Origin: Janthinobacterium sp. UMAB-56
GTDB taxonomy: Bacteria > Pseudomonadota > Gammaproteobacteria > Burkholderiales > Burkholderiaceae_D
Direction of reading: 5' to 3'
NCBI RefSeq assembly: GCF_900095265.1
Contig: NZ_LT607651.1
Location: 446,304 to 510,303 of the forward strand
Length of the DNA stretch: 64,000 nt
This document shows positions 49,698-61,666 of the stretch, in pieces (the first letter of the stretch is position 1; every line of letters starts with the position of its first letter). The translations under genes were made by a program, and so were the position numbers. The notes below the pieces were generated by a model. It did not search any database. It was given only the letters and a program-made list of their open reading frames with translations, and was not told the DNA's origin.

Positions 49698-50315
49698 ATG
49701 ACCAAGCCTGACCAGAACGACCTGTCTGCCATCGACGCCGCCACCATCGCCCTCAACCGGCGCATGAACAAATTCGACGGCCATGCACAGGTCTGGCTGT
49801 TCGGCTACGGCTCGCTGATCTACAAGGCGGACTTCCCCTATCTTGAACGGCGCCCCGCCAGCATCGCAGGCTGGACGCGGCGCTTCTGGCAAGGCTCGCA
49901 CGACCACCGGGGCACGCCCATGGCGCCGGGCCGGGTCGCCACCATCGTGCCGCAGGCGGGCGCCGTGTGCGACGGCATGGCCTATCTGATCACGCCCGAA
50001 GTCTTCGCCCACCTCGATCACCGCGAAAAAAATGGCTATTTGCGCCTGGCCACCGACATCACTTTCGAGGACGGTGGCAAAGTCGAAGGCCTGGTGTACA
50101 TCGCCAACGAAGAAAACGCCGCCTTCCTCGGCGCCGCCCCGGAGCTCGACATCGCGCGCCAGATCGCCCGTTCAAACGGCCCCAGCGGCCCGAACAGCGA
50201 GTACCTGCTGCACCTGGCCAGCGCCCTGCGCGAACTGGGCAAGAGCGACCCGCATGTCTTTGCGATCGAGCAACATCTGGCCCAATTGAAAGATACCCCG
50301 CCTGCAGCGCAGTGA
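49698..50315 (+). CDS. ChaC-like gamma-glutamylcyclotransferase
   Basis: A 205-residue protein with the GGCT fold: VWLFGYGSLIYKADFPYLERRPASIAGWTRRFWQGSHDHRGTP at residues 33-75 and HLDHREKNGYLR near 105, in which the Glu is the likely catalytic acid/base. ChaC-type enzymes degrade glutathione to 5-oxoproline and Cys-Gly. The start ATG is at 49698-49700, 28 bases after the LysR stop and probably cotranscribed with it. An upstream 30-residue extension lies inside the LysR gene and was rejected. Confidence 0.85.
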   Translation: MTKPDQNDLSAIDAATIALNRRMNKFDGHAQVWLFGYGSLIYKADFPYLERRPASIAGWTRRFWQGSHDHRGTPMAPGRVATIVPQAGAVCDGMAYLITPEVFAHLDHREKNGYLRLATDITFEDGGKVEGLVYIANEENAAFLGAAPELDIARQIARSNGPSGPNSEYLLHLASALRELGKSDPHVFAIEQHLAQLKDTPPAAQ

Positions 50316-50367
50316 GCTACGGCGAGCGAGCGCCTGCCTCAACCATGCACCCGGCTGCGGGCCGCAG

Positions 50368-50384
50368 GCTTGCAATATGCAAGC
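50368..50384. promoter_or_regulatory. Perfect inverted repeat upstream of the sigma-54 activator gene
   Basis: Arms GCTTGCA (50368-50374) and TGCAAGC (50378-50384) flank ATA. A second short repeat, GGCGA-CTA-TCGCC, follows at 50412-50424. They lie in the 244-base gap before the regulator gene and could be operators, or the first could be a weak terminator for the preceding gene. Confidence 0.4.
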
Positions 50385-50559
50385 GATAAATATCTCTTTA
50401 GTGTGACAATTGGCGACTATCGCCGTTTCAGAAGCGACCATAATCTGAACGCGCGATTCCTGTATGCATAAGTGAAGCAAGGGTACGCGTCAGCAGGCAG
50501 CGGGGCAGAAAACTGACGGCCCTGCACGATCGGAGCGAACTCATCGGAGCGAGACGACC

Positions 50560-52962
50560 ATGTCCGACAGGACTATGCCGCAACAGTATGGCAGGCAGCC
50601 GCATGACGTACTTCCCGGGGCGACCGCCATTGCCCCGGTGCATGCCCTCATACATTGCGGTAGCGTAGCGAGCGGGCTGAACATCATAGGCAGCTCCGCG
50701 GTTTTCCAGCGCCTGCTGCGCATGGTCGAAGCGGTGGCACCGACCCGCTGCACGGTGCTCATCAACGGCCCCACCGGTTCCGGCAAGGAAATTATCGCCC
50801 AGCTCGTGCACCGACGCAGCGGCGACCCCGCTGCGCCGTTTGTCGATCTCAATTGCGGCGCCCTGCCGGAACACTTGATCGATGCGGAACTCTTCGGCCA
50901 TACCAAAGGGGCGTTTACGGGAGCGCTCAACAGCCGCGACGGCTTTTTCGCCCAGGCGGGGCAAGGCACGCTGTTTCTCGATGAAATAGGCGAACTGCCG
51001 TTGACGGTACAGAGCAAGCTGCTGCGCGTGCTCGAATCGCGCCGTTTCCGGCCGCTGGGCGGCGGCGACACCCAGCCGTTCAACGGGCGCATCGTGGCCG
51101 CCACCCACTGCGACCTGGCAGCGATGGTGCAAGCGGGCCGTTTCCGCGCAGACCTGTACTACCGGCTGGCGGTGTTGAAACTCGACGTACCGGGCCTGGA
51201 CCAGCGCCGCAGCGACGTCGCCGCACTCGCCGCACACTTTGCCAGCCTGCAGAAGCGGCCCATCCGTTTCACCGCCACCGCCATGGAGCGGCTGTGCCGG
51301 CATCCCTGGCCAGGGCATATCCGCGAACTGCGCAATCTGATTGAGCGGCTGTCGATACTGGCCGAATCCCCGCTGATCGATGCACACAGCCTGGAAGCCT
51401 TCCTGTCGGCGGGGCAGCCCGAGGTCGCCGACCACACGCTGCTGGCAGAAGCCCTGATGCAGCTGGAAGGCGATGACAAGCTGGCTGCTGCGGAACAATT
51501 GTTGATCGAGTATGCGATGCGCATTGCCGATGGCAACAAGACGATCGCCGCCCGCCACCTGGGCGTCAACCGCAAGGTCATCGAACGCCGGCGGCATGGC
51601 GACGAAGAGCGCAGTAATTTCGCCCGCGTCTGCCTGCTAGAGGGGCGCGCACTGATCGAGGCGGCGCGCTTCAAGGAAGCCATCGAAGTGTTGCGGCGCG
51701 GCCTCACACTGCTGGCGGCCGACGCGCACCCCTGCACCGCGCGCCGGCTGAGCTGCGACCTTCACCGCTGGCTGGCCATCTCGCACCGTGGCATCAGCGG
51801 ATGGCAAAGTGCCGAAGCGCTCGCCTGCTATCAACAGGCATTGCAAGAGGCAGCGGCACTCGGCGACGAGGTAGAAATCACCGCCCTGCGCTTCGGCATC
51901 TGGACCACGCAGCTGATGGCGCTGGACCTGGTGGCGGCCCGGGCAACGGCGCAGGACATGCTGCAGCGGGCGCAGGCGATAGGCGACACGGACTTGCTGT
52001 CCCAGGCCCACCTGGCCCTGGCCAACACGCTGTTCTGGCTCGGCGATTACCGCGAGACCCTGGCCTGCCTGGCGCGCGGACACCTGCTGTGCGGCGCGGC
52101 CTCGGCCGAAACCGGGGGACAGGGCCTGGATATCGCCGCGCTGTCCGCCACCTTCGAAGGCCTGTCCTGCTTCCAGAGCGGCGCCTTCCGGCGCGCGCGC
52201 CTGGTGATGGAGCAACTGGGCTTGCGCGGCGCCGCCGACAACCCGCACCCATTCCATCGCGCCATCGCGCTGCAGGGCGCCGCTTGGCTGGCCTGCATGT
52301 TCGAAGACTGGGCCAGACTGGCAGACCTGGCAGCTGAGCTGCAGACCGTCGCCAGCGAATATGGCTATCAATTCTACCTGGGGGTGGGCCAGATATTCCA
52401 TGCCTGCGCCTTGGCGCCGGGCAACGCCCATGCGCAGACCGAACAGCGCATCGCCGACGGCTATCAGCACTACATGCTGTGCGAAGGTGGCATGCTCTTC
52501 CATTCATTCCAGGCCTGGAAACGTGGCGAAATGCTGCTGTCGGCAGGCCAGCCTTTGCAAGCCCGGCAGTTGCTGCACGGCGCCATCGAACTGGCGCTGG
52601 AACATGGCGAACGGGCCTATCTGGTCGAACTGCTCGACATGCACGCCCGCACATGGATCGCGGTGGACGACCTGGACAACGCGGAACGCGAGCTGGGCAG
52701 TGCGCTGTCGACGGCCAAGGCGCTGGGCGCGGCGGCCGGCAGCCTGCTGGTAGCGACCCGCCTGGCGCTGCTGCTGCAGCAGCGCGGACGCTGGCCCGAA
52801 GCGCTACAGCACCTCACGCGCGCCTTGCGCAGCGTGGAGCCTGACACGGCTTTCCCCCGGTTTGCCCAGGCGCTGCAGTTGCAGGCCAGTCTGGCGCAGG
52901 CCATTTCCATGCCATGCCAACCTGAGGACCCGCAACATGAGCTATCTGCTGAACCACGATGA
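50560..52962 (+). CDS. Sigma-54 activator with AAA+ domain, internal HTH and C-terminal TPR region
   Basis: An 800-residue bacterial enhancer-binding protein. After a short 40-residue N-terminus with no receiver or GAF domain comes the AAA+ module: Walker A NGPTGSGKE (69-77), the sigma-54 contact loop GAFTGA (117-122), Walker B TLFLDEIGE (137-145) and the R-finger region (RADLYYRLAVL, 196). A Fis-type HTH follows (EYAMRIADGNKTIAARHLGVNRKVIERRR, 317-345). The remaining 450 residues are helical TPR/MalT-like repeats. This places the DNA-binding domain in the middle. The gene overlaps the DUF917 gene by 26 bases. The start is ATG 50560-50562 with GGAG upstream. Confidence 0.88.
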   Translation: MSDRTMPQQYGRQPHDVLPGATAIAPVHALIHCGSVASGLNIIGSSAVFQRLLRMVEAVAPTRCTVLINGPTGSGKEIIAQLVHRRSGDPAAPFVDLNCGALPEHLIDAELFGHTKGAFTGALNSRDGFFAQAGQGTLFLDEIGELPLTVQSKLLRVLESRRFRPLGGGDTQPFNGRIVAATHCDLAAMVQAGRFRADLYYRLAVLKLDVPGLDQRRSDVAALAAHFASLQKRPIRFTATAMERLCRHPWPGHIRELRNLIERLSILAESPLIDAHSLEAFLSAGQPEVADHTLLAEALMQLEGDDKLAAAEQLLIEYAMRIADGNKTIAARHLGVNRKVIERRRHGDEERSNFARVCLLEGRALIEAARFKEAIEVLRRGLTLLAADAHPCTARRLSCDLHRWLAISHRGISGWQSAEALACYQQALQEAAALGDEVEITALRFGIWTTQLMALDLVAARATAQDMLQRAQAIGDTDLLSQAHLALANTLFWLGDYRETLACLARGHLLCGAASAETGGQGLDIAALSATFEGLSCFQSGAFRRARLVMEQLGLRGAADNPHPFHRAIALQGAAWLACMFEDWARLADLAAELQTVASEYGYQFYLGVGQIFHACALAPGNAHAQTEQRIADGYQHYMLCEGGMLFHSFQAWKRGEMLLSAGQPLQARQLLHGAIELALEHGERAYLVELLDMHARTWIAVDDLDNAERELGSALSTAKALGAAAGSLLVATRLALLLQQRGRWPEALQHLTRALRSVEPDTAFPRFAQALQLQASLAQAISMPCQPEDPQHELSAEPR

Positions 52963-54157
52963 CCTTGAATCGCTACTGCTGGGAGCTTGCTTCTTCGGCA
53001 GCGGTGGCGGCGGCACGCTCACGTCCGCGCGCAGCCTGCTGGCCCAGTTCCACGCCGGCGATTATTATCCAGATGCCCAGGTACGCGTGGTCAGCGTCGA
53101 CGAAGCCACGCATGGCGATACGGTCATGGTCGCTTACCTCGGTTCGCCCGTGGCGATCAATGGCGCCCACTATCCGCAGGGGCCTGTCGATGCCGTGATC
53201 GCGGTCAGGGAACGCCTGGCGCTGGAAAAACGCACGCTGTCCTACCTGGCACCGCCAGAGAGCGGAGCGCTGGGGTTTCTCGTCGCCTGCCTGGTCGCCG
53301 CCCACCTGGGGCTGGCCGTGATCGACGCCGACGGCGCCGGCCGCGCCGTTCCCTCGCTGCCCCAACTGACGTATGCGGCCGCGCAGATCAGTCCGCGCCC
53401 GGCCTTCCTCGTCAGCCAAGCGGGACTGCGCGTCGAACTCGACGTCCAGCCCAGCCAGGGCCAGAACGGCGCCCATTCCCATCAGCAGGACGTGGCAACG
53501 ATCATCGACCAGATGATGCGCCCCATCGTCTCCCAGGCCGATTTCAAGCAATTCGGCGGACTGGCCATGTGGATCATGGCGCCAGCGCAACTGGAGCGGG
53601 CACTGCCTGTGCGCGGCACCCTGGGACGTGCGCTGCGCCTAGGCCGCGAACTGCAGGCTGGCCGCCTGCGCAGCGCTGACGAACTGGTCAGTTATCTGGC
53701 GCGACAATTCGACATGCGCGCCTTGCCGCTGTTTGCGCAGGGCACATTCGTCGCAGCCGAAGTCGAATCGCGCAATGGCTTCGACCTGGGAAAAATCACT
53801 ATCCGCGCAGGCGACCGGCTATGCACGGTCCTGTACCAGAACGAATCGCTGCTGGCATGGGACAGCAGCCGAAGCAGCCCCATCTGCATGGCGCCCGACG
53901 GCATCAGTTACTTTGTCGAAGGCGATGGCCAGGCCGTGTATTCGAATGGCGACTTGCTGCTGCCTGATGGCACGCTCAACCCCGCTCTCCTGCAACGCAA
54001 GGTGACGCTGCTGGGCCTGGACGCCAATCCGGTCCTGCGTGAACGGGGCGGCCTGATACTGGACAGCTTCATGCAACTGATCAACACCATCGGCTACCTG
54101 GGACCCTATGTGCCGCTCGCCGGCAACGCCAGCGCAGCGACAGGGAGCGCCGTATGA
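52937..54157 (+). CDS. DUF917 (S-methyl-thiohydantoin desulfurase-like) protein
   Basis: A 406-residue member of the DUF917 family, renamed in Pfam after an S-methyl-thiohydantoin desulfurase. The N-terminal LLGACFFGSGGGGTLTSARSLL (about residues 13-34) and LGLAVIDADGAGRAVPSLPQL near 121 are typical. A C-terminal beta-rich half (about 260-395) completes it. Family members often accompany hydantoinase or racemase genes, as here. The start is MSYLLNHDD (ATG 52937-52939, GAGG upstream), inside the end of the activator gene. The substrate is unknown. Confidence 0.78.
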   Translation: MSYLLNHDDLESLLLGACFFGSGGGGTLTSARSLLAQFHAGDYYPDAQVRVVSVDEATHGDTVMVAYLGSPVAINGAHYPQGPVDAVIAVRERLALEKRTLSYLAPPESGALGFLVACLVAAHLGLAVIDADGAGRAVPSLPQLTYAAAQISPRPAFLVSQAGLRVELDVQPSQGQNGAHSHQQDVATIIDQMMRPIVSQADFKQFGGLAMWIMAPAQLERALPVRGTLGRALRLGRELQAGRLRSADELVSYLARQFDMRALPLFAQGTFVAAEVESRNGFDLGKITIRAGDRLCTVLYQNESLLAWDSSRSSPICMAPDGISYFVEGDGQAVYSNGDLLLPDGTLNPALLQRKVTLLGLDANPVLRERGGLILDSFMQLINTIGYLGPYVPLAGNASAATGSAV

Positions 54158-54867
54158 AGTCGCTGCGCATCTGCATCGTGGCGCCAGTGGCTACCGCCGC
54201 CTACAACCAGCGTCTGCTCGACGCCGTCCAGCCCGTGATGCCGCCCGATGTCGAGGTGTCCGTGCGCAATATTTCGACCGGGAACGACTGCATCGAATAC
54301 CGCGTCGACTGGCTGCAAAACGGCTATCCGGTGGTACAACTGGCCAGGGACATCGAACGCGAAGGCTATGACGGCATCTGGCTCAGCGACTTCGACATGT
54401 GCGGCGTGGAGGCGGCGCGCGAAGTGATCGACATCCCCATCCTTGGAGGCTTCCCGCCCGCCGCCTTTACCGCGCTGGCACTCAGCCAGCGACTGTCGAT
54501 CATGACAATACTGCCAAGCACGCTCGCCATGCAGCAGGGCCACATGCAGGCCTATGGATTGCAGGACAGCTTCGCCTCCATCCGCTCCATCGACTGTCCG
54601 GTCGGCGACCTCGGCAACCTGGACAAGGTGATCGAGCAAACCTTCCAGGCTGCCATGCTGGCGATACAGAAAGACGGTGCCCAGTCCATCTTGCTCGGCT
54701 GCACAGGCTTTGTTGGCGTCGCCGCGCGCGTCACCGCGCTGCTGGAAGACGCGCTGCATACCTATGTGCCGGTGATCGATCCGAACCAGGCAGGCTTCAG
54801 CTTCCTTGTTTCCCTCGCCCGCATGCGCCTGCGACCCAGCCGCGCCTGCTACAGCAAGCATAGCTGA
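54154..54867 (+). CDS. Asp/Glu/hydantoin racemase-family protein
   Basis: A 237-residue cofactor-independent racemase fold protein. The two catalytic cysteines are seen as Cys83 (DFDMCGVEAARE) and Cys183 (LLGCTGFVGVA), each in its usual motif. The start overlaps the DUF917 stop by four bases (ATGA). It resembles hydantoin racemases more than glutamate racemase in length and in the SDFDMCG motif. It might racemise a hydantoin or an amino acid used by the neighbouring DUF917 enzyme; a link to the peptide genes downstream is only positional. Confidence 0.8.
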   Translation: MKSLRICIVAPVATAAYNQRLLDAVQPVMPPDVEVSVRNISTGNDCIEYRVDWLQNGYPVVQLARDIEREGYDGIWLSDFDMCGVEAAREVIDIPILGGFPPAAFTALALSQRLSIMTILPSTLAMQQGHMQAYGLQDSFASIRSIDCPVGDLGNLDKVIEQTFQAAMLAIQKDGAQSILLGCTGFVGVAARVTALLEDALHTYVPVIDPNQAGFSFLVSLARMRLRPSRACYSKHS

Positions 54868-54941
54868 TTCACCGCTCGCGCCCGCGACCATGCCAAGCCG
54901 TGGCGCGGGCGCTCCATCCCGCCCTTTCCTGCCTGCCGTTT

Positions 54942-54971
54942 TCGTCCATCCCGGCCAAAGATGGTGGACGA
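54942..54971. promoter_or_regulatory. Distal inverted repeat upstream of the sigma-54 promoter
   Basis: Perfect 7-bp arms TCGTCCA (54942-54948) and TGGACGA (54965-54971) with a 16-base gap. It could be a terminator stem for the racemase operon (no T tract follows) or an additional activator site. The centre is about 113 bases before the predicted transcription start of the protease gene. Confidence 0.35.
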
Positions 54972-54991
54972 TATCAGCCAACATTGTTGCG

Positions 54992-55005
54992 TCACGTAAA
55001 CGTGA
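54992..55005. promoter_or_regulatory. Candidate upstream activating sequence
   Basis: Perfect inverted repeat TCACGT-AA-ACGTGA, centred about 47 bases upstream of the -24 element. A dimeric Fis-type HTH of the neighbouring activator could bind such a site. The spacing is a little short for classic enhancers, which lie 80-200 bases upstream, but is within reported range. Confidence 0.45.
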
Positions 55006-55042
55006 ATCAGCCCCATCCCTTAGAAATCAAACACTTGGCGTT

Positions 55043-55059
55043 CTGGCACAGCCTTTGCT
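55043..55059 (+). promoter_or_regulatory. Sigma-54 (-24/-12) promoter before the PatA/PatG-like protease gene
   Basis: CTGGCACAGCCTTTGCT matches the sigma-54 consensus (YTGGCACGRNNNTTGCW) at every defined position but one. GG is at 55045-55046 and GC at 55057-55058, with exactly ten bases between them. The predicted start is near 55070, leaving a leader of about 95 bases before the GTG start. An enhancer-binding activator gene lies 2 kb upstream. Confidence 0.8.
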
Positions 55060-55164
55060 AAAGATCATGCTATCGGTGCCCGAGCAGCAGGCGCCGCAGC
55101 AGGCAGTCGGTGCACCTCAAACGGTGTGGCGCCCGCCCTCCAGGACCCAGCAAGGAGCCCCGCC

Positions 55165-57081
55165 GTGTCGACGACTTTGGAAATATCCACCACCCACGAC
55201 AGCATGGCCAATCACGGCTTGCTGCCCGGCATGGCTGCCTTGCAAGAAGGCAATACCGGCTGTGCCGATATCTGCATCGCCGTGCTGGACGGTCCCGTCG
55301 ATACCAGCCATCCCTGTTTTGCCGGCGCCAAGCTGGAATTGATTGACACCCTCGCCACTGGTTCGAGCGGCAACGGCAGGGCATCGCTGCACGGCACCCA
55401 TGTCACCAGCATAATCTTTGGCCAGCCGGGCAGCCCCGTCACGGGCCTGGCGCCCCATTGCCGGGGCTTGATCCTGCCCATCTTTGCCGACCGCGCCGAT
55501 GGCACATTGACGCAATGCACGCAACTAGACCTGGCCCGCGCCATCACCCAGGCCGTCGAGCATGGCGCGCACATCATCAATGTCAGCGGCGGTGAACTGT
55601 CCGACAGCGGCGCCGCCGACGGCCTGCTGCAAAAAGCCATACAACTGTGCCATGAACGCAACGTGCTGCTGGTCGCGGCGGCGGGTAATGACGGCTGCGA
55701 TTGCCTGCACATCCCCGCCTCCATCAAATACACCCTGGTGGTCGGTGCCCTGGACCGGCAAGGCGCCCCCATGCCCAATAGCAACTGGGGCGAGGCCTAT
55801 CGCACGCGCGGCATCATGGCGCCCGGCACCGACATCGTCGGCGCCGGGCCAGCAGGGAGCGTGCGCGTCAACAGCGGCACCAGCTTTGCCACCCCGATCG
55901 TCTCGGCCATCGCAGCCTTGCTGCTGTGCCGACAACACCAACATGGGGATCGTCCTGACCCTCGTGGAGTTTGCAGCGCATTGCTGCAAAGCGCAACGCG
56001 TTGCAACACCAATGGCGAGCTGGACTGTCGCCGCCTCCTGACTGGGACATTGAATGTGCCGGGCGCCACTCAACTTATATTATTAAAAGGGAAAATTGAA
56101 ATGTCAGACGATACTGTGATTGAAGTGAGCCCAGCCAATGCCGACACTTCCGCGCTGGCGCACCCACCCAGCATTCCCATGCTGGAAACTCCCTCCCTGT
56201 CCACTCTGGCGGCCACTGCCGGCGTAACGCGGCAAGGCATCGCCGCCTCCGGCATCGATGCCTCCGATTGCGGCTGCGGCGGCGTTACTGCCAAGGGCCC
56301 GACGCTGGTGTATGCACTGGGCAACCTGGGCATCGACTTCGGCAGCGAAGCGCGCCACGATTCATTTGTCCAGGCCATGCCATTGGGCAGGAACAACCCG
56401 GACGATCCGCAGCAATTGATCGAATTTCTGCGCGCAAAGCCATATTTCCGGCAATCACTGACCTGGACCGTCAATCTGGACGCCACACCGATTTACGCGA
56501 TCGTGCCCGTCGGTCCGTATGCCGACCTGACCTATGAACTGCTGTTCGAGGCCCTGGTTGGCACAATCGATGGCAAGGTCGTCATGAATTCGTTTCCCGG
56601 CGTAATCTCGGGCGCCGCCAGGCTGATGTCCGGCCAGATCGTGCCCGTGATTCAGCCAGCCATACGGGGCATGTTCAGCTGGAATGTCCCGGAACTGATC
56701 AGCAGCCTGCTGGCGGTGCAAGACAACCAGGAACTGAACAGCGACAACACGGGAGCGCGCCTGGAAAACTTCCTGAACCGCATCTATTACGACTTCCGCA
56801 ACCTGGGCGTCACAGGCATGGACCGCGCGCTCAACTTCTCGGCCACGAATGCCATGCAGGCTGCTGAAATGCTGATCAAGACCATCGGCATGCAGCTCGA
56901 TACCATCGTCGTGCAACAGAGCCCCGTGTGCCGCCCTGGCTCCGAATGCTACGACATCATCATGACCTTCTTCAACCCGGAAAATCTGCAGATAGCCAAC
57001 ACGGTCGCACGCTTCGCCGTCGACGTCAGCGATGTGATACCGGTCAGCGTCGGGCCCGTGCGCTACTGGTCGCAGCGCTAA
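55165..57081 (+). CDS. PatA/PatG-family subtilisin-like RiPP maturation protease
   Basis: A 638-residue S8 peptidase of the cyanobactin-maturation type. The catalytic triad is complete: Asp42 (AVLDGPVDTSHPCF), His76 (LHGTHVTS), oxyanion Asn175 (AAAGND) and Ser240 (NSGTSFATP). After the protease domain (to about residue 290) comes a Pro/Ala-rich linker with GIAASGIDASDCGCGG. It is followed by the family's C-terminal domain (VYALGNLGIDFGSEARHDSF onward). No signal peptide is seen, as expected for cytoplasmic RiPP proteases. The start is GTG 55165-55167, seven bases after a strong AAGGAG; an upstream in-frame GTG lacks a site. It is followed by two small peptide genes. Confidence 0.88.
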   Translation: MSTTLEISTTHDSMANHGLLPGMAALQEGNTGCADICIAVLDGPVDTSHPCFAGAKLELIDTLATGSSGNGRASLHGTHVTSIIFGQPGSPVTGLAPHCRGLILPIFADRADGTLTQCTQLDLARAITQAVEHGAHIINVSGGELSDSGAADGLLQKAIQLCHERNVLLVAAAGNDGCDCLHIPASIKYTLVVGALDRQGAPMPNSNWGEAYRTRGIMAPGTDIVGAGPAGSVRVNSGTSFATPIVSAIAALLLCRQHQHGDRPDPRGVCSALLQSATRCNTNGELDCRRLLTGTLNVPGATQLILLKGKIEMSDDTVIEVSPANADTSALAHPPSIPMLETPSLSTLAATAGVTRQGIAASGIDASDCGCGGVTAKGPTLVYALGNLGIDFGSEARHDSFVQAMPLGRNNPDDPQQLIEFLRAKPYFRQSLTWTVNLDATPIYAIVPVGPYADLTYELLFEALVGTIDGKVVMNSFPGVISGAARLMSGQIVPVIQPAIRGMFSWNVPELISSLLAVQDNQELNSDNTGARLENFLNRIYYDFRNLGVTGMDRALNFSATNAMQAAEMLIKTIGMQLDTIVVQQSPVCRPGSECYDIIMTFFNPENLQIANTVARFAVDVSDVIPVSVGPVRYWSQR

Positions 57082-57236
57082 CTGCAAGGCCCAATGAATT
57101 GTCGGAGCACGTGGGCGCAGCGATGCGCGCACGCGCTTCAGCAAACGGTCGTTGGCGGGAAACGATCAGCACCGTACCCTCGGTACACACATCCATTGTC
57201 GTTGCCCGCAGCGGCGCCATCACAAGGAGCTTTAAA

Positions 57237-57413
57237 ATGAACAATCTGCCATTGCAAGCCAAAGCCGTTCAACGCAGCCCCGGCATCTCCGCCATCAGCC
57301 AGGGCGTCGCCCCTTCCGGCATTGCCTGCACCCTGTGCCAAATGGGTTGCAGCGCCTTGAGCGGCAGCGCACAGCAAATCTGCCTGGCAGCTTGCGCCGC
57401 CACCGTTTGCTGA
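57237..57413 (+). CDS. Candidate Cys-rich RiPP precursor peptide 1 (58 aa)
   Basis: A 58-residue frame with a strong AAGGAG site (57224-57229) seven bases before the ATG. The N-terminal half is Cys-free (starts MNNLPLQ, contains RSPGISA). The C-terminal half is Cys-rich with Cys31, 34, 38, 49, 53 and 58. A GVAPS sequence (23-27) precedes the Cys-rich part and matches the form G-L/V-x-A/P-S at which PatA cuts cyanobactin precursors. It lies 155 bases after the protease gene. Product identity is inferred; no database match is claimed. Confidence 0.72.
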   Translation: MNNLPLQAKAVQRSPGISAISQGVAPSGIACTLCQMGCSALSGSAQQICLAACAATVC

Positions 57414-57459
57414 TCAAGCCAGCAGGATCGAGCCATTCCGGCTAAACCCGGCATGCCTG

Positions 57460-57484
57460 CGGGCGATGAGTTTCTTGTCGCCCG
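57460..57484 (+). terminator. Hairpin between the two peptide genes
   Basis: Perfect 7-bp arms CGGGCGA (57460-57466) and TCGCCCG (57478-57484) with an 11-base loop and no T tract. It may stabilise the first peptide's message or cause partial termination, so that peptide 1 is made in excess of peptide 2. Confidence 0.45.
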
Positions 57485-57525
57485 TTCAGTCCGCCGGCAT
57501 CAACCCCGATTGAGGAAGGACAGCA

Positions 57526-57777
57526 ATGCGACTCCCACTACAAAGCCCGCCTGTTTCGCGCAGCGCGCGTGGCCCTATCAACGCACTAGCCAGTGGCCCG
57601 CAGGCCAGCGGCATGCAGCCGTCCGCCTGCGGACCAACCAACACCGGCCAGGGGCAGTGCTTCGATACGCACGGACCGATAGGCGGACCGACGGCCCACA
57701 ATTGCAGCGCCTGCTGCGCCCGGCGCGGCGCGATTCACTGGCAAGGCGTGAATGGCACCTTTGCCATCTGCCACTGA
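57526..57777 (+). CDS. Candidate Cys-rich RiPP precursor peptide 2 (83 aa)
   Basis: An 83-residue frame with GAGGAAGGA five bases before the ATG. It shares the LPLQ start and the V-x-RS and I-x-AL elements with peptide 1. It then has GMQPS (29-33) directly before the first Cys. The C-terminal part has six cysteines (35, 45, 60, 63, 64, 82), several Gly-Pro pairs and three His. No known family is recognised. The shared leader with a divergent Cys-rich core is the pattern expected of two substrates of one processing enzyme. Confidence 0.68.
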   Translation: MRLPLQSPPVSRSARGPINALASGPQASGMQPSACGPTNTGQGQCFDTHGPIGGPTAHNCSACCARRGAIHWQGVNGTFAICH

Positions 57778-57791
57778 AAAACTAATCCCGC

Positions 57792-57838
57792 AAGGCAGCC
57801 CTCGCCTCCTGGCCTCTGCCGGAAGCGGGGGCTGTCTT
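57792..57838. terminator. Terminator hairpin between convergent genes
   Basis: Arms 57792-57805 and 57825-57838 pair at 12 of 14 positions around a 19-base loop. The stem lies 14 bases after the second peptide gene and 39 bases before the end of the convergent radical-SAM gene, so it probably serves the peptide transcript. Confidence 0.65.
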
Positions 57839-57876
57839 GATCACCGTCCCTTCCCTCAGTATCCGCGCTGCATGTT

Positions 57877-59067
57877 CTAAAACAAATCGAGCTGCCCCGC
57901 ATTGCCTCCTTTGGCCTTGTTTCCCAACGGCGGCACCACCAGCGGGCGGCGGAACTGCGTGCTATCGAGCTGCTTGAAGCGGCCACCCTTGCCATGCAGC
58001 CCCAGCCGGTGCACAGCCTTTTCAAAGCGTTGCCCGATGAGGTCGGCCCACACGCCTTCGCCCCGCATGCGCGCGCCGAACGCGCTATCGTAATCCTTGC
58101 CGCCGCGCATTTCGCGCACCCGGTTCATCACGCGCTGGGCCCGTTCAGGGAAGTGCGCTTCCAGCCATTGCTGGAACAATGGACTCACTTCCCACGGCAG
58201 GCGCAGTACCACGTAATGGGCGTGGATGGCACCGGCGTCGCGTACGGCTTCCAGCAGTTGCTCGATTTCCGGCTCCGTCACAAAGGGAATGATGGGCGCG
58301 ATGCTCACGCCCACGGGGATACCCGCCTCCGTCAGTGTGCGGATGGTGCGCAAGCGCCGCGCCGGCGCGGCTGCGCGCGGTTCCAGGGTGCGCGCGATGG
58401 CCGGGTCCAGCGTGGTGACAGTGACGGCCACCGCTGCCAGGCGACGGGCCGCCATGGGGGCCAATATGTCGATATCGCGTTCGATCAGCGACGATTTCGT
58501 GATCAGCGCCACGGGGTGGTCGCACTCATGCAGCACCTCCAGCACGCGCCGCGTCAGTTGCCGTTCGCGTTCGCACGGCTGGTACGCATCGGTATTGACG
58601 CCCAGGGCGATCGGTTCGGGCACATACGACGGCTTGGCCAATTCGCGCCGCAACAGTTCGGGGGCATTCACCTTGGCATAGATGCGGCTTTCGAAGTCGA
58701 GGCCAGGCGACAGGCCCAGATAACTGTGCGTGGGGCGGGCAAAGCAATAAATGCAGCCATGTTCGCAGCCCCGGTACGGGTTAAGCGAAACATTGAACGG
58801 CAAATCGGGCGAGGCGTTGCGCGTGAGGATGGTGCGCGCCTGCTCGTCGCTGACCTGCGTCGTCCAGCCCGGAACCTTCGTCTCGCCAGCTGCCTCATCC
58901 AGGCCACCCACACTCCAGCCATCATCGAAACCGGCGCGCGCATGCGCCTCGTAGCGCCCTTGCAGGTTCGAGACGGCGCCGCGCCCCTTGTGGGCTTTCA
59001 GCGATTGCGGCGGCAACATGGCTTGCCCGGCATAGCTGTCATCGTGCCCTGGAATGATTGCTTTCAT
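57877..59067 (-). CDS. PA0069-family radical SAM protein
   Basis: A 396-residue radical SAM enzyme. The 4Fe4S-binding motif CxxxCxYC is present in YRGCEHGCIYCFARPTH near residue 101. The N-terminal KGRGAVSNLQGRYE and the downstream ITKSSLIERDIDIL and GIPVGVSIAPIIPF segments match the Rv2578c/PA0069 family, related to spore photoproduct lyase-like proteins. The start was set at MKAIIPGHDD (ATG 59065-59067) behind GGGG. A consensus LexA box lies 16 bases upstream, so a role in DNA damage response is likely. The reaction is unknown. Confidence 0.85.
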   Translation of the reverse strand: MKAIIPGHDDSYAGQAMLPPQSLKAHKGRGAVSNLQGRYEAHARAGFDDGWSVGGLDEAAGETKVPGWTTQVSDEQARTILTRNASPDLPFNVSLNPYRGCEHGCIYCFARPTHSYLGLSPGLDFESRIYAKVNAPELLRRELAKPSYVPEPIALGVNTDAYQPCERERQLTRRVLEVLHECDHPVALITKSSLIERDIDILAPMAARRLAAVAVTVTTLDPAIARTLEPRAAAPARRLRTIRTLTEAGIPVGVSIAPIIPFVTEPEIEQLLEAVRDAGAIHAHYVVLRLPWEVSPLFQQWLEAHFPERAQRVMNRVREMRGGKDYDSAFGARMRGEGVWADLIGQRFEKAVHRLGLHGKGGRFKQLDSTQFRRPLVVPPLGNKAKGGNAGQLDLF

Positions 59068-59082
59068 GAACGGCCCCATTAA

Positions 59083-59098
59083 CTGTATATACATACAG
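59083..59098. promoter_or_regulatory. LexA (SOS) box upstream of the radical SAM gene
   Basis: CTGTATATACATACAG has the full CTGT-N8-ACAG form with an AT-rich centre. On the minus strand a TTGATC / 17 / TAGTAT promoter-like pair lies just upstream of the box, so LexA would block the transcription start region. Confidence 0.85.
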
Positions 59099-59147
59099 TA
59101 TACTATGCCGCTGTGCAGCCAAGATCAAGGGTTACCATGATGCCGTT

Positions 59148-59843
59148 TCACGCTTTTTCAGCATGCGCCATGACATAACTCAACTGCTGCGCGACAAAAC
59201 CGTCAAATGCCGTGATCAGGGTAACGAAACGCGATGCGTCCTGCTCCAACTGCATCAAGGCATAGCAGGTCGCTTCCAGAGTCGATAACTGGTCTGGCGC
59301 GTGTGCCTTGCGAATCAGGTAGTGGGAAGCGGGCGTAGCGCGCAGTGGCAGGCGCGGCAACTGCTGCAAGGGGGGATTCAGATACAACATCTTGCGGCTC
59401 TTGCGCCAGGTGGCGTCCAGCACCACCAGCCGTAGTCGTGCCGGGTCGAGCAAGATGGCGGGGTCAAGCGCCGGCGGCGGCGCGATGCCCAGCGAACGGT
59501 CGCCGGGCGTATCCGGGTACAGCAACACATTGTGCTTGTGGGCCAGCAATGCGGTGAGGGTATCCGGGGCAAACTGCTCGCCCGTCAGCAGGCGGCTGTT
59601 GGGCAGGCTCAGGTGCAGCAAGCGGGCACTGCCCTTGGCATTCTGGACTTCCAGCGGATGCTGCAGGATCAGCACTTCCAGCGCGTGGGGAACGGGGGTA
59701 ACCCAATGGCAGATGCAGCTGGATACGGCACGCAGGCAGCGTGGGCAGCGCGCGCGTTTGGCGGGTTCCGCCAGGGAGGAGGATGCAGACGTTGGGCTGG
59801 AGATACGACTCGGGCTACTGCTGGAGGTACGGTGGGTGGTCAT
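59148..59843 (-). CDS. DTW-domain tRNA-uridine aminocarboxypropyltransferase
   Basis: A 231-residue DTW/TDD-family enzyme that adds a 3-amino-3-carboxypropyl group from SAM to tRNA uridine (acp3U). The DTW motif is seen as VVLDATWRKSRKMLYLNP near residue 140. A Cys cluster RCPRCLRAVSSCICHW (Cys33, 36, 43, 45) resembles the zinc-binding N-terminus of the E. coli TapT (YfiP) type. The first 30 residues are Ser-rich and probably disordered. It stands alone on the minus strand, with no clear operon partner. Confidence 0.85.
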   Translation of the reverse strand: MTTHRTSSSSPSRISSPTSASSSLAEPAKRARCPRCLRAVSSCICHWVTPVPHALEVLILQHPLEVQNAKGSARLLHLSLPNSRLLTGEQFAPDTLTALLAHKHNVLLYPDTPGDRSLGIAPPPALDPAILLDPARLRLVVLDATWRKSRKMLYLNPPLQQLPRLPLRATPASHYLIRKAHAPDQLSTLEATCYALMQLEQDASRFVTLITAFDGFVAQQLSYVMAHAEKA

Positions 59844-59914
59844 GGCGGAGCGCGTTCACGGCTATCTTCAAGCCGCGATTGTAGCGCCCGTGCCATGCCA
59901 AGGGGAATCTACGC

Positions 59915-61666
59915 TTAAAACTCTTCCCATTCGTCGGCGCCAGATGCCACCGGCGTCGTCGGCGCGCGCGTGCGCACAGCTTCCGCTTGCGCCGCCTTGC
60001 CCGGCGTGGACGCGGTCACGGCTGGCGCCGGCGCGCGTCGCATGGTGGGCCGCATGGCAGGTCGCGTGGCAACTGGCGCAGACGTCTTCACAGACGGGGC
60101 AGCACTGGCGGCAACATATTGCTGCGTTGCATCGAGCTTGAACAAGCCCACCACGTCGGCCAGCTTGGCAGCCTGCTCCTGCATGGATTCGGCCGCTGCG
60201 GCCGCTTCTTCCACCAGGGCTGCATTTTGCTGCGTCACCTGGTCCATCTGGCCGATGGCCTGGTTGACTTGCTCGATGCCGGCGCGCTGTTCGTCGCTGG
60301 CGTCGGTGATCTGGTTCATGATCTGCGTCACATGGCTGATGCTTTGCACGATCTCATCCATGGTGCGGCCCGCCTTGTCCACCAGTTGCGAACCGGCCTC
60401 GACCTTTTGCACAGAATCGTCGATCAAGCCCTTGATTTCCTTGGCCGCCGCGCTCGATCGCTGCGCCAGGTTGCGTACCTCGGAAGCCACCACGGCAAAA
60501 CCACGGCCCTGTTCACCGGCCCTGGCCGCTTCCACGGCCGCGTTCAAGGCCAGGATATTCGTCTGGAAGGCGATGGCGTCGATGACGCTGATGATGTCGA
60601 CGATCTTGCGCGAGGAATCGTTGATCGAGCCCATGGTGCTGACCACTTCCGACACCACCACGCCGCCCTTGCTGGCAATGTGCGAGGCATCGATGGCCAG
60701 TTGGTTGGCGCTGCGGGCATTGTCGGCATTGAGTTTCACGGTGGAGGTCAATTCTTCCATGGAAGACGCCGTTTCTTCCAGCGAGCTGGCCTGCTCTTCC
60801 GTACGCGACGACAAGTCCAGGTTGCCGGCGGCGATTTCGCTCGATGCCGTGCTGATGGAATCGGTGCCGACGCGCACCTGACCGACGATACTGACCAATT
60901 TATCGTTCATGTTTTTCAGCGCATGCATCAATTGCCCCGTTTCATCGCGGCTTTCCACCACGATATGGCTGGTCAGGTCGCCAGCGGAAACGGCTTCCGC
61001 TACCTCCACGGCGCGCGTGATGGGACGCGTGATCGAGCGCGTGATCCAGTAGGCGCAGGCGATGCCCAGCAGGATGGCGGCCACGCCCAGCGAGATCAGC
61101 AGCAAGCGACCGCTTTCGTAGCGTGAACGGATTTGCGCGGCCATGTCATCGAGCAATCGGGTTTCCAGCACTTCCAGCTTTTTCAGCGACGCTAGGTAGA
61201 TGTCGCGCTTGACGGCCATGTCGCCTTCGTACAAACGCTTGCCCAGTTCCAGGTCGCCCGCATTCTTGGCCTTGAACACATTCTTGCGCACATCCGTGTA
61301 CGCCTTGCGCGTACTCAGCACTTCCTGGAAGAGCGCCTGCTCTTCGGCGTTCAGCTCACTCTTGCCGATAGCGTTCTGGATTTCCGTGGCGCGCGACGAC
61401 GAGACCGCCATTTCCTTTTCAAACTGCTTCTGGTGTTCGGGATCGCTGACTTTCCAGGCGGCGGCAGTGCGAGCCGCGTTCACTTCGATGACCTTGGTCC
61501 ACTCGGCGATCAGGCGCTCATTGCGCACTTTGACATTGACTAGCGCATCGGTTTCCTGGCTGGCGCTTTGCATCTGCACGATGCCCACCACGGTGAGGGT
61601 CGTCAACAGGAGCAGGACGGCGGCAAAGCCGCCACCGAGACGTACGCCGATTTTGAGGTTCTTCAT
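59915..61666 (-). CDS. Methyl-accepting chemotaxis protein with four-helix sensor and CheR tether
   Basis: A 583-residue chemoreceptor. TM1 (about 8-30) precedes a four-helix-bundle periplasmic sensor (about 32-190, containing [18 protein letters not shown]). TM2 (about 192-212), HAMP and a signalling domain with [33 protein letters not shown] follow. A 70-residue Pro/Ala-rich linker ends in EWEEF, the same tether pentapeptide as the chemoreceptor at 16385-18337. The start is [10 protein letters not shown] (ATG 61664-61666, AGGA upstream). The ligand is unknown. Confidence 0.93.

Follow-up and report, generated by a model that had tools for sequence, protein, structure and literature searches.

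A stretch of 64,000 nucleotides from the genome of Janthinobacterium sp. UMAB-56 (contig NZ_LT607651.1; referred to below as the window) carries on its forward strand a gene for a subtilisin-like protease, followed by two genes for small cysteine-rich peptides that we designate pep1 and pep2. The protease gene begins with a GTG codon at 55165, ends at 57081 and has a ribosome site (AAGGAG) at 55152–55157; the small genes are preceded by ribosome sites as well, AAGGAG (57224–57229) in front of pep1 and GAGGAAGG (57512–57519) in front of pep2. Both peptides are free of cysteine in their N-terminal part and contain six cysteines each. They share a leader of the form L-P-L-Q-x-x-(P/A)-V-x-R at the N-terminus, and a short motif, GVAPS in pep1 and GMQPS in pep2, is located between the leader and the first cysteine. 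A promoter and terminator scan returned nothing above chance. The features are as follows.

55165..57081, + strand: PatA-type leader protease, 638 aa (Asp42/His76/Ser240); TIGR03895, 632.4 bits, and comparison with PDB chains
55270..55998, + strand: subtilisin (S8) domain, residues 36–278; PF00082, E 3.4e-28
56251..56265, + strand: linker motif GIDAS, then DCGCGG; candidate self-processing site, from its resemblance to the substrate cleavage motif
56308..56556, + strand: PatG_D domain, residues 382–464; PF18047, E 1.1e-12
56746..57069, + strand: PatG_C domain, residues 528–635; PF18065, E 5.3e-31; 4uvq, 201 bits over residues 382–636
57237..57413, + strand: precursor peptide 1 (pep1), 58 aa; homologues P0001–P0003; in 5/5 protease-bearing Janthinobacterium genomes
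57246..57275, + strand: leader motif LPLQAKAVQR of pep1; alignment and leader scan
57303..57317, + strand: predicted cleavage motif GVAPS of pep1; motif counts and PatA consensus
57318..57410, + strand: predicted core 1, 31 aa, six Cys; from the sequence
57526..57777, + strand: precursor peptide 2 (pep2), 83 aa; homologues P0004–P0006 and L014
57532..57561, + strand: leader motif LPLQSPPVSR of pep2; alignment, scan and a weak PatB-model match
57610..57624, + strand: predicted cleavage motif GMQPS of pep2; motif counts
57625..57774, + strand: predicted core 2, 50 aa, six Cys; modelled with AlphaFold2 as a small beta-beta-alpha-beta-beta domain

Family Placement of the Protease

The catalytic residues Asp42, His76 and Ser240 are all present, and the matches to Peptidase_S8, PatG_D and PatG_C each lie above the Pfam cut-off. 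An initial annotation of this DNA had described a protease with an intact Ser–His–Asp triad and a cyanobactin-maturation C-terminal domain, and two small genes each with a strong ribosome site, a cysteine-free start and six cysteines, a description borne out at every point. The comparison with PatA/PatG models that it had proposed gave 632.4 bits to TIGR03895 (cut-off 421.05) over profile positions 1–605 of 606, and the protein is a member of the PatA/PatG maturation protease family. Against chains of known structure it scored 334 bits (4h6w) and 320 bits (4h6v) for the PatA type, compared with 150 when matched to the macrocyclase of PatG. The C-terminal region aligns with the PatG domain of unknown function whose structure has been solved (DUF; 4uvq, 201 bits). 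Judged by these scores, the protease is nearer to PatA than to the macrocyclase domain of PatG and probably belongs to the PatA (leader-removing) subgroup.

A protease 91% identical to that of the window is found on the chromosome of Janthinobacterium sp. LM6. In a tree of S8 domains with 17 rows, three canonical cyanobactin PatA rows cluster (81/86) separately from the protease-only rows; most other branches of this tree are unresolved, L132 sits on a long branch, and the rows leave out L078, which was too short, as well as L083. An AlphaFold2 model of the protease, calculated from five sequences, was discarded as too poor (mean pLDDT 38.4).

Leader and Predicted Cleavage Motifs

An alignment of 21 chosen precursors from the window locus and other loci shows Q7 and R13 to be invariant, with P5 and V11 each conserved in at least 90% of the rows. 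The leader peptide of patellamide type (PatE) used in crystallography, NILPQQGQPVIR as given in a passage of PMC5108345, resembles the pattern L-P-x-Q-x-x-(P/A)-V-x-R of pep1 and pep2. Four of the 21 aligned precursors match TIGR04446 (PirE; best E 1.9e-4), three match TIGR03678 and two match the PatB model (TIGR04220) weakly. Neither pep1 nor pep2 has a match to TIGR03678 or TIGR04446 at E 1, and pep1 matches none of the models; pep2 matches the PatB model weakly (E 0.13), at model positions 1–12 only. By its motif, the leader of pep1 and pep2 is of the cyanobactin type.

A strict scan for this leader found exactly pep1 and pep2 within 52001–60000 of the window and none in the remaining 56 kb. 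Because the scan finds just these two, close homologues exist, pep2 is under purifying selection and the leader of pep1 is constrained, the possibility that the two are small frames arisen by chance can be rejected.

PatA enzymes cleave after G(L/V)E(A/P)S, as stated in a passage of PMC10885120, and pep1 and pep2 carry motifs that look PatA-like, after which cleavage is predicted. Among the 68 distinct precursors collected, 66 fit a leader pattern that had been widened slightly. After the leader, a relaxed cleavage motif is present in 62 of the 66, as against 11.2 expected by shuffling; this contrast is descriptive, because the relaxed motif was fitted to these rows, which are related to one another.

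A motif of this kind also occurs within the protease. The pattern (V/L/I/M)-x-(A/P)-S, followed by Cys directly or one residue later, has a single occurrence in 16 of the 22 protease rows, and it sits between the subtilisin and the DUF wherever the alignment shows its position. It is not found in L007 and L008 (no subtilisin), L078 and L083 (broken), L080 or the PatG of L077. This suggests a site of self-cleavage or a built-in pseudo-substrate.

Distribution of the Protease and the Leader

We scanned 18 PatA-type loci: five from Janthinobacterium, one from the Alteromonadaceae (L012), one each from the same family (L119), class (L120) and phylum (L121) as the window, and nine on plasmids, the fetched subset of 27 plasmid records with a match. 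The strict scan found leader peptides at 16 of the 18, which span cyanobacteria, Streptomyces and proteobacteria, and found none at 49 loci of other subtilisins (171 kb) and none in cluster-free loci (105 kb). The two loci missed are L076 and L077. A looser, later look detected a variant precursor directly behind the protease of L076 (IPNQSIGQIR, GVQPS, four Cys) and, at a nineteenth locus, L132, a precursor behind the protease with KPIQSPGVER and then a hydrophobic core. The protease of L083 is a fragment, with the peptide on the opposite strand, and that of L078 is interrupted too.

L077, on a Gloeothece plasmid, is a cluster with a heterocyclase, PatB and PatC. A small gene near the heterocyclase (L077:9336-9581) has no leader and has GVTPS plus a Cys-rich tail at its end. 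The PatB protein (L077:14580-14795) starts MRLPKLAPPVKR, similar to the leader motif; PatB may be a substrate itself. In the Gloeocapsa and Nostoc plasmids, a CAP-domain gene lies just upstream of the protease (L075:9332-9922 and L078:9291-9536).

The module is rare outside the genus. TIGR03895 scores above cut-off in 6 of 294 genomes of the family and 2 of 369 of the class, the genome under study being counted in both; PatG_C is found in 2 of 398 genomes of the phylum (own included) and in 2 of 385 of the class of G983 (G983 included), and phages gave no match at 1e-30. The module is not peculiar to the Oxalobacteraceae: it also turns up in Streptomyces, in cyanobacteria, in an Alteromonadaceae genome and in further proteobacteria. 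The initial annotation had proposed a candidate new family of ribosomally synthesized and post-translationally modified peptides (RiPPs) in a betaproteobacterium, and had named as refuting it a lack of conserved small frames beside homologous proteases or a lack of coding selection in them. Shared-leader frames were found as set out above, selection is seen for pep2 and for the leader of pep1, and the pairing of protease and small frames is conserved, which largely supports the proposal; the pairing is, however, wider than the Oxalobacteraceae, and its leader is of cyanobactin type, so that the family is not an unrelated one.

Within Janthinobacterium, 5 of 40 genomes have the full protease, and precursors (profile A1) were found in exactly these; the other 35, two with a DUF-only protein among them, gave none. 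In this profile search, 150 of about 200–250 first-look candidates were scored in most genomes. Two Janthinobacterium genomes encode PatG_D/PatG_C alone, with no subtilisin and no leader peptide found nearby (L122:8293-9165 and L123:8966-9985).

The window could also be compared with loci that lack the cluster, and this delimits an insertion:

50285..57878, + strand: whole insertion, comprising a sigma-54 regulator, an S-Me-THD-like protein, an Asp/Glu racemase, the protease and the two precursors; from cluster-free Janthinobacterium loci

In each of the 18 cluster-free loci tested (25 fetched), homology to the window ends at about 50285, in the terminal part of ChaC, and is restored from about 57878, the end of the PA0069 radical SAM gene. 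These two genes are separated by about 0.04–0.24 kb in 16 of the loci, by 1.1 kb in L091 and by 0.57 kb in L106. The insertion is collinear in the four other carriers, except that G004 (L118) has lost most of pep2 (window 57574–57863 has no counterpart) and retained the protease and pep1. Given the position of the break, the insertion also includes the sigma-54 regulator, the S-Me-THD-like protein and the racemase (50560–54867), which are possibly a thiohydantoin-type catabolic unit; because none of the three was seen in annotations or scans beside the proteases of other lineages, we do not count them in the module.

Selection and Structure of the Cores

Proportions of nonsynonymous (pN) and synonymous (pS) differences were compared among the five Janthinobacterium copies, where two of the five pep1 proteins are identical and counts are small. 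The leader of pep1 has a pS of 0.103 and a pN of 0.020, and its core a pS of 0.056 and a pN of 0.106. Nonsynonymous and synonymous codon columns stand at 10:3 in the pep1 core, 3:4 in the pep1 leader and 78:147 in the protease, and the excess of amino-acid change in the core over the protease has a one-sided p of 0.003. All six cysteines of pep1 are fixed among the five copies; this pattern of a fast core with fixed cysteines fits competition with other microbes. Purifying selection acts on pep2 (pooled pN/pS 0.09; core pS 0.204, pN 0.009), and in a relative from a different genus of this family the cysteines, like the GQCF and NCxACC stretches, are retained, so conserved a core fitting a fixed target or fold. 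The AlphaFold2 model of pep2, from four sequences, has a mean pLDDT of 65.7, with ten-residue blocks at 79–85 over residues 41–83 and values below 50 for residues 1–26; the core model gave no fold match in the PDB (best E 8.4).

Cores are mostly cysteine-rich in the Gram-negatives and cyanobacteria and often short and amphipathic in Streptomyces. The strict scan gave 3–5 leader peptides at each of the four fetched Streptomyces loci, two of the three at L081 being on the opposite strand. Among the Streptomyces cores, many are both short and hydrophobic, with FLPLLGALGSLLF in L082 and GLFDLIAKGIGGLIG in P0031 as examples, each after GVEAN, and others contain two Cys; those measured, together with the metagenomic ones, are hydrophobic and 11–36 aa long. 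The hydrophobic cores are reminiscent of frog-skin membrane peptides. The hydrophobic moment lies above that of 95% of their own shuffles in eight of nine Streptomyces cores (163 of 2000 shuffles reach it in the exception, P0041) and in the metagenomic P0048, and not in L132 (242 of 2000), pep1 (210) or pep2 (1373). The division by lineage is not strict, because the proteobacterial precursor of L132 (L132:7193-7351) has a 23-residue hydrophobic core without Cys, closer to the Streptomyces type than to that of the Gram-negatives. A BTAD-type regulator adjoins the protease in all four Streptomyces loci. These loci (L079–L082) also encode a larger small protein that has LNLPV or LTLPV close to the N-terminus; in L080, L081 and L082 its end is a conserved W-x-C-x-P-G-x-x-C-x-W tail.

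An alternative is that the peptides are small folded proteins, binding metal or membranes, that stay intracellular and are activated or destroyed by the protease; neither an exporter nor a signal peptide was recognized, and the pep2 core, modelled as compact, is as strongly conserved as described above. The pep1 core, however, varies faster than the protease, which suits competition better than housekeeping, and many Streptomyces cores resemble membrane-active helices, so that we think an intracellular role unlikely.

Search for Partner Enzymes

The initial annotation had noted the absence of a heterocyclase and of a prenyltransferase from the window. For the heterocyclase this can be extended to the whole genome, whose single YcaO, encoded on a different contig, belongs to the ribosomal S12 type (872.7 bits, cut-off 700); no RiPP-type YcaO was found in the genome, the genome-wide search for modifying enzymes having covered the YcaO and PatA/PatG families. 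For the prenyltransferase, the search with TIGR04445 gave no match but none in the controls either, and does not establish absence. There is no second PatA/PatG protease in the genome, the next match being a weak one to a general subtilisin (E 1.9e-4). The neighbouring radical SAM gene was considered as a modifying enzyme and rejected, because it is of the PA0069 type and 38 of the 40 genomes of the genus have it, with or without the cluster.

It is conceivable that pep1 and pep2 are true modified RiPPs, their cysteines being altered before leader removal by an enzyme encoded elsewhere. Unclustered RiPP enzymes are known in other classes, for example the unclustered lanthipeptide proteases, and possible partners do occur at other loci, with two oxidoreductase-like neighbours at L121 (2OG-Fe(II) oxygenase, DAO) and a glycosyltransferase 0.7 kb behind the protease of L075. 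Against this stands the lack of a RiPP-type YcaO in the genome. Furthermore, six of the seven fetched plasmid loci with an unbroken protease have no annotated heterocyclase, lanthionine synthetase or radical SAM enzyme, in gene tables that are incomplete and with L081 ending at a record edge; L077 alone has a heterocyclase. Among ten neighbour proteins scanned around L012, L119, L120 and L121, eight yielded no plausible modifying enzyme. We hold prior modification of the cysteines to be about as improbable as an intracellular role.

Relation to Cyanobactin Pathways

A cyanobactin cluster is described, in passages of PMC4663559, as having two proteases A and G, a precursor E with a leader and flanking recognition sequences, small genes B and C, and optionally a cyclodehydratase D and a prenyltransferase F. 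The genome encodes one such protease. The precursors have the leader and an N-terminal cleavage-type motif, and a recognition sequence at the C-terminus was not seen; neither B nor C was recognized beside the protease, in a search of the locus only, the match of pep2 to PatB being weak and 12 residues long; and the only YcaO is no candidate for D. Because the two-protease description (PMC4663559) does not apply, we do not file the locus as a cyanobactin cluster.

One could still suppose that this is a strict cyanobactin cluster whose protease performs both leader removal and macrocyclization, as the protease family, the leader and the cleavage motif are all those of cyanobactins. Yet the protease scores 320–334 bits to PatA-type chains versus 150 to the PatG macrocyclase, no PatG homologue was found elsewhere in the genome, no AYD-type C-terminal signal was seen in pep1 or pep2, and there is no heterocyclase; such a cluster is highly improbable.

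The locus shares with PatA (4h6v, 4h6w) the subtilisin family, the trailing cyanobactin C-terminal DUF, the triad, and substrates with an LPxQxxPVxR-type leader and a G-x-x-(A/P)-S type motif; it differs in having one protease with two precursors, and no PatG macrocyclase or heterocyclase was found. Likewise, the N-terminal leader motif of the peptides and their relatives is that of PatE and PirE (TIGR03678, TIGR04446), whereas the window cores are of 31 and 50 aa with six Cys and lack a visible AYD-type signal. With PatB/AcyB/McaB (TIGR04220) the common element is a leader-like N-terminal stretch, as at the start of the L077 PatB, and two of the 21 precursors match weakly, whereas the match of pep2 does not extend beyond the first 12 model positions. 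An orphan cyanobactin peptidase of Roseomonas oryzae (PMC8776678) is comparable as a cyanobactin-type peptidase in a proteobacterium, and differs in that a cyanobactin-like product is predicted for it, with no precursor named in the passage concerned. By its architecture (leader, cleavage motif and variable core), the locus appears to fit the definition of a RiPP, and it would work like the PatA step alone. Since its leader is of cyanobactin type, with 4 of 21 precursors matching the PirE model, the locus is more aptly called a pared-down relative of the cyanobactin pathway than a family without connection to it.

Proposed Peptide Release by a Free-Standing Protease

Taken with the gene order, the family of the protease, the common leader and cleavage-type motif, their co-occurrence, the selection pattern and the non-RiPP type of the only YcaO found, all directly observed, we consider it probable that the locus encodes a PatA-type subtilisin with two precursors bearing cyanobactin-type leaders, predicted to be cut after GVAPS and GMQPS, and that this likely frees six-Cys peptides of 31 and 50 residues without heterocyclization or macrocyclization. 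The protease and the precursors would be produced together, and the leader would dock on the protease, perhaps through the PatG_D/PatG_C DUF. Cutting after the Ser of GVAPS or GMQPS would then free a linear core, and the protease may also cut its own linker at GIDAS. The cysteines would pair after export, and the peptides would act outside the cell, probably against competitors.

It should be noted that several observations weigh against this scheme. The strict PatA consensus occurs in just 5 of the 66 precursors, and the relaxed motif is our own widening, fitted to these sequences, many of them related; its first match lies 2–4 or 47 residues past the leader in 11 of the 62, off the site read by eye. 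The control subtilisin loci are short, at about 3.5 kb each versus 8–22 kb for the PatA loci. L077 is without a leader-type precursor, those of L076 and L132 emerged only in the looser, later look, and no precursor was found at the incomplete loci L122 and L123 (DUF alone) and L124 (half a protease). The difference between the pep1 core and the pep1 leader alone is not significant (p 0.17). Finally, no exporter or immunity gene was recognized in the insertion and no signal peptide by eye, and the cytosol is not a normal place for disulfide formation.

A wider reading, which we put at even chances, is that a PatA-type protease with an LPxQxxPVxR leader forms a free-standing system of peptide release across cyanobacteria, Streptomyces and proteobacteria, of which the heterocyclized cyanobactins would be one elaborated branch. 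The pair of leader and protease would then act as a plug-in that frees unmodified peptides of varied build, mostly cysteine-rich miniproteins in the Gram-negatives and cyanobacteria and short amphipathic helices of membrane type in Streptomyces, with PatG_D/PatG_C reading the leader and the protease releasing itself through a cut in its linker, where a copy of the substrate motif lies. No account of a protease-plus-leader module was found in the literature searched, which largely excluded subscription papers, and passages of PMC4259220 and PMC4663559 describe the functions of PatB and the cyanobactin DUF as unknown. Here the heterocyclase and the macrocyclase appear to have been dispensed with, and the protease, the DUF and the LPxQxxPVxR leader have been kept together, which makes the pairing of leader and DUF a directly testable hypothesis. 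The pairing also exposes a set of precursor genes, mostly annotated as hypothetical proteins, with antimicrobial-looking cores, and it may offer a compact protease-plus-leader tool for the release of unmodified peptides.

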